NCBI RefSeq assembly: GCF_002797895.1
Contig: NZ_PGES01000001.1
Coordinates: forward strand, 4,960,001 to 5,024,000
Reading direction: 5' to 3'
DNA length: 64,000 bases
From: Janthinobacterium sp. 67
GTDB taxonomy: Bacteria > Pseudomonadota > Gammaproteobacteria > Burkholderiales > Burkholderiaceae_D
Position 1 is the stretch's first letter. Every line of letters begins with the position of its first letter. The notes beneath the pieces were generated by a model, which saw nothing but the letters and a program-made list of their open reading frames with translations, was not told where the DNA came from and did no database searches. Below are positions 24,501-25,743 of this stretch, in pieces. Both the position numbers and the translations under genes were made by a program.

Positions 24501-24502
24501 TG

Positions 24503-24508
24503 TATTAT
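24503..24508 (+). promoter_or_regulatory. Left-end half (-10, TATTAT) of the circle-junction promoter
   Basis: TATTAT two bases inside the left end. When the element circularises, the TTGACG of the right end is placed exactly 17 bp upstream (13 nt of right end, CT core, TG). This makes a sigma70 promoter firing into the bridge RNA with a start near 24515. Confidence 0.7.
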
Positions 24509-24514
24509 TCCCTT

Positions 24515-24720
24515 CATGCCGTTCGTGATATTGCGAACGGTATCGACCGCTGTCAAAATCTTGGTAGGCATATCAAGACCGGGTAACTGGATGCCGTATC
24601 CGCCCTTAGGCTTCGAGCCAGTTTCGTAGATCTCGCACCAGTTACCCATCCTCAATGTCAAGATCGGACAGTATCTTTGGCACCGGCATGCCGGTTAGCC
24701 CGCATTCACAAGGTAGATCG
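24515..24720 (+). ncRNA. Bridge RNA of the IS110 element (target- and donor-binding loops)
   Basis: A 5' hairpin CCGTTCG/CGAACGG (24519-24540) is followed by a target loop closed by a perfect 10-bp stem GGGTAACTGG/CCAGTTACCC (24581-24590 with 24638-24647). Inside it, 24598-24606 (ATCCGCCCT) matches the REP target ATCCGACCT with one mismatch, and 24625-24629 (CGTAG) is complementary to the core plus right target CTACG. In the second loop, 24668-24677 (ACAGTATCTT) is identical to the donor junction (right end + CT + T), and 24708-24712 (ACAAG) complements CTTGT. An inner hairpin ACCGG/CCGGT (24682-24695) separates the two donor guides. Exact 5' and 3' ends are inferred. Confidence 0.82.
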
Positions 24721-24735
24721 CAAGAGGAGCACAGC

Positions 24736-25695
24736 ATGTTTAATCTGGGAATCGACGTTGCCAAGGCAAAGCTCGACTGCGCGCTGCGCCTGCCCAATGG
24801 CAAGCATCGTAACAAGGTAGTAGACAACAATGACAAAGGATACACCGAGCTGCACGCATGGCTACTCAAGCATGAGGCCGGCAGCCCGCGTGTGTGTATG
24901 GAAGCGACCGGCACCTACTGGGAAAGGGTGGCCGAATATCTGGCGGGACGGGGCATGCTGGTCAGTGTCATCAATCCGGCGCAGATCAAGGCCTTCGGCG
25001 CTTCGCGCCTGGTGCGCACGAAAACGGACAAAGTCGACGCGCAGCTGATCGCCGACTTCGCCCATGAACGCCAGCCCGAGCCATGGCTGGCGCCGTCGCC
25101 GGCCGAACAGGCACTGCGCGCCATGGTGCTGCGCATGGAAGCCTTGCAAGCCATGCGCCAGCAGGAAAGCAATCGGCTCGATGTGGCGCGTGCAGCGGTA
25201 CGCCAGGGCATCGTCGATCACATCACCTGGCTCGATGGCCAGATCAAGGAACTGATCCGAGCCATCAGACGGCATATCGATGACGACCCGGATTTGCGCG
25301 GCAAGCGTGAGCTGCTCGACACCATTCCTGGCCTCGGAGAGCGGACAATTCCGGTGCTGCTGTCCTACTATGCCAATCCCGAGCGCTTCGACAGCGCCAA
25401 GCAAGCCGTGGCGTTTGCGGGACTCGACCCGCGCCAGCACGAGTCTGGTTCCAGCGTACGTGGCAAGCCACGCATGTCGAAGGTCGGCCATAGCTTCCTG
25501 CGCAAAGCGCTGTACATGCCCGCCATGGTGACCGTGTACCGGACAGCCTGGGGCAAGCGCTTTGGTCAGCGCCTGCGTGCTGCTGGCAAGGCAAAGAAAC
25601 TGATCATCGGCGCCATGATGCGCAAGCTGGTGCACGTGGCATTCGGCGTGCTCAGGTCGGGAAAAATATTTGATCCGACCTTGCACGCCGCTTGA
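24736..25695 (+). CDS. IS110-family transposase (bridge recombinase)
   Basis: 319 residues. The RuvC-like DEDD residues are Asp7 (GIDVAKAK), Glu56 (MEATGTY), Asp98 and Asp101 (TKTDKVDAQ). From memory, their spacing of 49/42/3 is the same as in IS621. The C-terminal Transposase_20 region includes IPGLGERT and [15 protein letters not shown]; Ser237 is the likely nucleophile. A coiled coil occupies about 122-190. The ATG at 24736 has GAGGAG upstream and begins the conserved [10 protein letters not shown]. The stop codon is embedded in the TTGACG -35 hexamer of the right end. Confidence 0.96.
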
Positions 25696-25697
25696 CG
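25692..25697 (+). promoter_or_regulatory. Right-end half (-35, TTGACG) of the circle-junction promoter
   Basis: TTGACG overlaps the transposase stop codon. In the integrated copy it has no partner; joined to the left end it is 17 bp from TATTAT. Confidence 0.65.
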
Positions 25698-25743
25698 GGG
25701 ATAACAGTATCTACGCCGTGGCATTGCGAGGCATTCGGAAAAT

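Follow-up and report, generated by a model that had tools for sequence, protein, structure and literature searches.

Bridge RNAs, the IS110-family element IS621 of Escherichia coli and the targeting of REPs by IS110 elements are already in print (PMC11208160, PMC11208158, PMC11187229 and PMC1525189). Covariation between guide and target, and a promoter that is rebuilt at the circle junction, have been reported for IS110 elements (sections 6 and 5 of PMC11208160, respectively). For IS621, section 11 of PMC11208158 describes a pairing that follows the exchange, between the other DNA and the two bases just behind each right guide. According to PMC1525189, the copies of four IS110-family elements lie in the REPs of their hosts: 7/7 for ISPpu9, 7/7 for ISPpu10, 6/6 for ISPa11 and 4/4 for ISRm19. 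The seekRNA of the IS1111/IS110 elements ISEc11, ISXne4 and ISEc21 is an RNA of the non-coding end that has one match for each target strand, and its guides have been redirected naturally (PMC11187229). We liken the element presented below to these systems by description, as REP-targeting members of the same family in the first case and as instances of the same concept in the second.

The element lies at positions 24501-25712 of the window, that is, of the whole 64,000-nucleotide stretch of Janthinobacterium sp. 67 DNA that was analysed. It adds a member to the IS621-like group, a kind already known, and it is almost certainly an autonomous IS110-group insertion sequence that is steered into the host REP by a bridge RNA. 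The recombinase is 52% identical to that of IS621 over 98% of the query and has the same DEDD and serine residues, the left end holds a bridge RNA with the same two loops, the RE-LE junction is the same (AACAGTATCT joined to TGTATTAT), and at the REP insertion point the CT core is likewise followed by AC. The REP and the left guide, on the other hand, differ from those of IS621. The guide mismatch is at position 6 in the present element (rC:dT) and at position 4 in IS621 (rG:dT; PMC11208160, section 9), and the handshake guide of the donor loop pairs fully here, with its U facing A, whereas the corresponding U of IS621 faces G. ISCro4 (PDB 9t56) is a further full-length match of the recombinase, with an E value of 2e-100. 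The features are as follows.

24468-24498, + strand: REP hairpin of the target, with arms GTCGGATTA (24468-24476) and TAATCCGAC (24490-24498); from the sequence, with 0/9 mismatches in the inverted-repeat test
24492-24500, + strand: left target ATCCGACCT, which ends in the CT core; from the sequence of copies and rows
24501-25712, + strand: complete IS110-group element (IS621-like), 1212 bp; from five full copies in the own genome and the uninterrupted site in G038, G010 and G005
24503-24508, + strand: putative -10 box TATTAT of the junction promoter, with a 17-nt spacer once the ends are joined; from the sequence
24514-24546, + strand: 5' stem-loop of the left end; from the minimum-energy fold
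24580-24727, + strand: region matched by covariance model R1, in which the genus is not represented; score 130.6 bits, E 1.2e-30
24581-24647, + strand: target-binding loop, with closing stem 24581-24590 / 24638-24647 (10 bp) and apical hairpin 24609-24619; from the fold and the sequence
24598-24606, + strand: left target guide ATCCGCCCT, with a mismatch at position 6 (C versus A); from the sequence and the comparison of guide and target
24626-24629, + strand: right target guide GUAG, complementary to CTAC; from own copies and genus rows
24630-24631, + strand: handshake guide AU in the target loop, with AT at donor positions 6-7 as its complement; by homology to IS621
24668-24677, + strand: left donor guide ACAGTATCTT; identical to the RE-LE junction
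24708-24712, + strand: right donor guide ACAAG, complementary to CTTGT; from the sequence
24713-24714, + strand: handshake guide GU in the donor loop, with AC at target positions 6-7 as its complement; by homology to IS621
24723-24729, + strand: likely ribosome-binding site AGAGGAG; judged from the sequence
24736-25695, + strand: DEDD recombinase, 319 aa, with D7, E56, D98, D101 and S237; from Pfam PF01548 and PF02371 and the IS621 and ISCro4 chains
25692-25697, + strand: putative -35 box of the junction promoter, TTGACG, which overlaps the stop codon of the recombinase (25693-25695); from the sequence
25704-25712, + strand: left donor ACAGTATCT at the right end; from the copies and the junction sequence
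25711-25714, + strand: right target CTAC (CT core and REP tail AC); from 5/5 own copies and 33/33 genus rows with a right flank

The recombinase matches PF01548 with 92.4 bits (cut-off 29) and PF02371 with 84.7 bits (cut-off 21.3). These domains, DEDD RuvC-like and Transposase_20, are those of the IS110 family, and the catalytic residues D7, E56, D98 and D101 as well as S237 are all present in the alignment with IS621. In the phmmer search of the PDB, residues 4-317 are matched by ISCro4, as given above, and by IS621 (E 7.7e-101). An alternative start at 24655 was considered and rejected, because the homology to IS621 begins at residue 4 of the protein that starts at 24736. The non-coding ends are 235 nt (left, 24501-24735) and 17 nt (right), and the long non-coding end with the bridge RNA model match to the left of the gene is the arrangement of the IS110 group and not that of IS1111, a group whose elements have sub-terminal inverted repeats of 7-17 bp. 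A preliminary description of this DNA had proposed a complete IS110 element, and the ends, the length of 1212 bp, the 235-nt left end and the five residues of the recombinase are all borne out. To that description we add the handshake guides, the split junction promoter, the other copies and the genus-wide 8/9 match.

The host genome contains five copies of the element, each 1212 bp long, which are the five PF02371 matches found there. Three of them are identical, and the other two share the same 6 substitutions; to judge by this identity, the element may have moved recently. All five are inserted between CTAATCCGACCT and AC of the REP hairpin, with CGCTAATCCGACCT as left flank and AC as right flank, and the sequence further out differs from copy to copy. 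The insertion site is thus the 3' arm of the hairpin repeat formed by GTCGGATTA and TAATCCGAC, followed by CTAC, and 5/5 own copies occupy one position of a repeat that is present in high copy number, as the genome has 140 vacant ATCCGACCTAC sites compared to 1 for the reversed pattern. Joined flanks were also searched against 40 genus genomes, and 3 of the 20 loci found were aligned; in these relatives (G038, G010 and G005) the uninterrupted site stands beside the same right flank with a single CT, which means that the element was inserted at CT. The placement of its ends is ambiguous by the 2-bp CT core. The five own copies are all at the site predicted by the guide, each with the one mismatch, and so are the copies of the genus, with one mismatch in 32/35 rows and a second one in 3/35. 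A genus copy of 1797 bp (L057, G015:C1:127507-129303) has repeated left-end and gene segments inside, which is either an internal duplication or an assembly effect.

We now consider the fold of the left end. The whole left end has a better fold than shuffled versions of it (z -3.01), and it displays two internal loops with conserved structure, as in the bridge RNA of IS621. The basis of covariance model R1 is a set of 26 relatives from genera other than that of the host, IS621 included, taken from the 33 non-genus rows of alignment A1; L019, L029, L030, L032, L036, L043 and L060 were left out as poorly aligned, divergent or near-duplicate. Up to E 10, the region listed above is its one match in the 64-kb window. 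In the 26 relatives, the consensus pairs are formed in 97.6% of cells compared to 84.1% after shuffling, although these pair counts were computed on the same alignment from which the structure was derived. Sliding the pairing partners by 1-3 columns lowers the paired cells to 26.7-45.3%. Changes on both sides are seen in 17/29 consensus pairs, and in helix 1 of the target loop in 8/10 pairs, while the number of further pair types in the 26-relative alignment is not above that of the shuffles (35 vs 34.6). No bridge RNA family of Rfam 15 was found, either over the window at the gathering score or over 24480-24760 at E <= 10, and the best chance match at the element scores 18 bits, where the gathering score is 47. 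The structural match to a bridge RNA model that had been suggested as a check is accordingly one to our own model, and it is present; the perfect 10-bp stem proposed for the target loop (24581-24590 with 24638-24647) is confirmed as well. Together with the copies at guide-predicted sites, the R1 match supports the bridge-RNA-guided interpretation of the preliminary description.

The guides of the element fit both of their partners. In the target loop, the left guide matches the occupied REP site in 8/9 positions, as had been claimed, and the right guide in 4/4. In the donor loop, the left guide (24668-24677) is identical to the RE-LE junction over 10 nt and the right guide (24708-24712) is complementary to CTTGT over 5 nt, both as described before; agreement of the donor loop in the 78 rows introduced below is no test, as the rows were picked by that motif. 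The right target guide, on the other hand, had been read as 5 nt (24625-24629 against CTACG), and here only the 4 nt GUAG against CTAC can be retained. Among the own copies, only 2/5 match the fifth base (G), and of 33 genus rows 12, 8 and 5 match at target positions 12, 13 and 14, respectively, a quarter of the rows being about 8. The bases past the 4-nt right guide match the target no more than by chance, which is another difference from IS621.

To compare guides and targets across hosts, the element ends were located by the donor loop and the left-end consensus, and the guide was compared with the flanking bases. The 157 loci reduce to 78 distinct rows, 35 from the genus and 43 from outside it, with the N-masked L058 absent. 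It is important to note how the rows were picked: the motifs were ACA[AG]T.TC...CAAGG, near ATGCCG and GTAGAT, and left ends were taken by nearness to CTTGTATTAT, so that the donor, the right guide and the -10 box owe part of their constancy to this selection. Letters of the left guide, left flank and -35 box did not enter into it. The 43 non-genus rows give 37 distinct guide/target pairs, 18 of which match 9/9 and 15 with one mismatch, the remaining ones having 2, 3, 4 and 5 mismatches, once each. At the 7 non-core positions, the left guide has a mean of 0.76 mismatches compared to 3.84 when guides are shuffled among elements, and 0/20,000 shuffles were as low as the observed value; the rows enter these tests without correction for relatedness. 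For four loci (L015, L030, L032 and L049), the parse of the target loop was adjusted manually once the sequence had been seen. We have therefore also considered the uncorrected parse, with 36 pairs, a mean of 0.92 and 32 matches at position 6, and the set without these four loci, with 33 pairs, a mean of 0.61 and 31 matches at position 6; in both cases the result is again 0/20,000. For the right guide, 75 mismatches are found at positions 10-14 in 42 rows, not made distinct and including the hand-corrected L030 and L032, compared to 98.9 after shuffling (0/20,000). The left guide thus tracks the occupied site across hosts, which is the published covariation, seen here in separately gathered relatives.

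Some rows fit poorly to their own guide, L010 with 3 mismatches and L013 with 4. L010 and L012 are closely related elements with different left guides in one genome, that of Undibacterium flavidum, and L010 is located at GCACACCCT, which has 3 mismatches to its own guide and 1 to that of L012; this suggests either guiding in trans or a guide that changed after the insertion. Two related elements of Xenorhabdus, L030 and L032, have GACAG as right guide instead of CGTAG. In L030 the left side fits (8/9) and the right side does not.

A quite different view of the left end would be that it merely serves the recombinase mRNA as a structured leader or regulatory RNA, and that the protein alone picks the REP site. 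Two small RNAs and a structured leader have been reported to regulate the transposase of the IS110 element ISPpu9 (PMC8450116), and in the present element the structured region stops just before the start codon. A leader of this kind would not, however, be expected to hold a left target guide that follows the occupied site from host to host, nor donor guides that match the element's own junction. In L032, moreover, a complementarity of 7 nt links the right guide (GACAG) to the right flank (CTGTCTT), at a place where nearly all other rows read CTAC, although the left side of this element is a misfit. We consequently regard the leader explanation as very improbable.

The one mismatch of the left guide deserves closer attention. 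The 8/9 match had been noted before and stands; what is new is that its mismatch proves common to the genus. The 35 genus rows come from eight genomes, partial copies at contig ends (many of them in G015 and G023) having been left out, and 34 of them carry the guide ATCCGCCCT, the remaining one ATCCGGCCT. All 35/35 rows have A at position 6 of the target and a guide that is mismatched there, with C facing T in 34. Outside the genus, position 6 is matched in 35/37 distinct pairs (32/36 in the uncorrected parse). In the tree, made from 53 different proteins of 72 extracted, 17 different genus proteins from six genomes form one clade (100/99); 6/78 rows gave no protein, those of G015 and G023 among them. 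Seven genus copies that were compared differ at up to 64/151 fourfold sites. The row with the changed guide, L146 (G029), has an unusual target, ATCCAACCT, and two mismatched positions.

Vacant sites that would match the guide perfectly (ATCCGCCCTAC) number 2 in the own genome, compared to the 140 ATCCGACCTAC sites, and 1 to 5 in each of the eight genomes, where the reversed-pattern controls give 0 to 2, so that the counts of C6 sites hardly exceed the controls. One vacant perfect site of the own genome (L157, G000:C1:921600-922100) lies in a REP-like hairpin with unequal arms. Among the 36 sites read there are 33 exact A6 insertions and none at a C6 site. A preference for perfect C6 sites can be bounded roughly at less than 3.8-fold at 95%, if equal survival of insertions is assumed.

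How can such a mismatch persist? Probably it is simply tolerated, as a relic of an earlier host with ATCCGCCCTAC in its REP, to which the guide was fitted; in the simplest reading, the abundance of A6 REPs is what makes the relic tolerable. L031 (Rhodocyclaceae) occupies ATCCGCCCT, a target that the guide matches perfectly, perfect sites are rare in the genus, and IS621 too lives with a natural mismatch, as section 9 of PMC11208160 reports. It has to be said that rC facing dT is not the wobble offered for the mismatch of IS621, that IS621 generally tolerates mismatches poorly (section 8 of the same paper), and that L031 belongs to another supported group. One may instead suppose that selection maintains the mismatch: in combination with the handshake pair of U(24714) and A6, a Watson-Crick pair, weak pairing of the left guide close to the core would favour strand exchange or restrain the activity. 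The contrast between the uniformly mismatched genus and the matched pairs elsewhere would be in line with this, as would the same guide in 34/35 rows despite the differences at fourfold sites and the full complementarity between the donor-loop handshake GU and A6-C7 of the target; the exchange by IS621 is aided when its handshake guides pair with the non-cognate DNA (PMC11208158, section 11).

We nevertheless consider maintenance by selection unlikely. The second base of the handshake is U in 77/78 rows whatever the target base, that is, handshake and target show no covariation and the handshake is not tuned; its first base, G, was required by the row-picking motif and provides no evidence. 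By our estimate, a single-site change from C to A need not have occurred in the time available, and with perfect sites as rare as the reversed-pattern controls, their disuse says little. A tolerated relic is likelier than a functional mismatch. The more specific proposal, that the donor-loop handshake U facing A6 favours A6 REPs and drives the exchange in one direction, is somewhat less probable still; if true, the handshake guide would be a natural second determinant of target choice. With many insertions, one guide and one fixed non-wobble mismatch, the genus constitutes in any case a natural experiment for the rules of bridge RNAs.

The inserted form contains no promoter-like site in 24400-25800 (the shuffles have a mean of 0.8), and the joined ends were therefore examined. 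Once joined, they are predicted to form a sigma70-like promoter, TTGACG-17-TATTAT, as in the junction promoters of the family. In the junctions of 73 rows, TTGACN is found in 64, the 17-nt spacer in 68 and TATTAT in 59, where the last number is partly built in, since the left-end consensus includes this box, and many rows are near-copies.

The mechanism that we propose builds on the anatomy of the element, the conservation of its structure, the covariation of guide and target across hosts and the repeated insertion at one REP position, all of which are observed. The element would excise as a circle, and the joining of its ends would then, by analogy with IS621, build the promoter from which the left end is transcribed into the bridge RNA. 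The recombinase would bind this RNA, whose target loop would pair with the 3' arm and the CTAC tail of the host REP hairpin and whose donor loop would pair with the element's own junction. Strand exchange, presumably catalysed by the recombinase, would take place at the shared CT core, and the element may be active at present.

Finally, we turn to the choice of the target in different hosts. The right guide GUAG is invariant in the 26 non-genus relatives aligned. Many REPs start with GTAG, according to PMC2817692, and this head reads CTAC on the target strand. This suggests a rule for the IS621-like clade, in which the near-constant GUAG corresponds to the GTAG head of the REP and the left guide follows the stem of the host REP. 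Such a rule would explain how these elements change hosts while still finding an abundant and mostly harmless target. The literature searched, at a level short of full texts, holds no statement that links the GUAG right guide to the GTAG head, and its matches for IS110 in Janthinobacterium were judged incidental at the same level.

The host repeats give a varied picture. The guide GCGCACCCT is carried by elements of both Undibacterium (L012) and Desulfoluna (L037), and its target GCGCACCCTAC is present in 58 and 50 copies in these two genomes, respectively, compared to 0 to 2 copies in the other seven genomes of the same search. In Methylomonas the host-repeat test failed: the two host genomes contain ATCGGAGCTAC once and 4 times, fewer than the 16 and 10 occurrences of the reversed-pattern controls. 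A strict test for an inverted repeat beside the site, which does not cover L008 and L032 of the 43 non-genus rows, gives p <= 0.02 in only 21/42 rows, and IS621 of E. coli itself fails this test (p 0.07).

Two minor observations concern the own genome. It has two Y1_Tnp matches, L163 (G000:C1:2723971-2724303) and L164 (G000:C1:3990469-3990783), at which a REP of the searched form is absent. By its HVHLLL motif, the match in L163 resembles a REP-associated tyrosine transposase, and it is thereby a candidate maker of the targeted REPs. Within the window, a TPP riboswitch is located at 13623-13738 (Rfam RF00059, 62.9 bits compared to a gathering score of 54.3).
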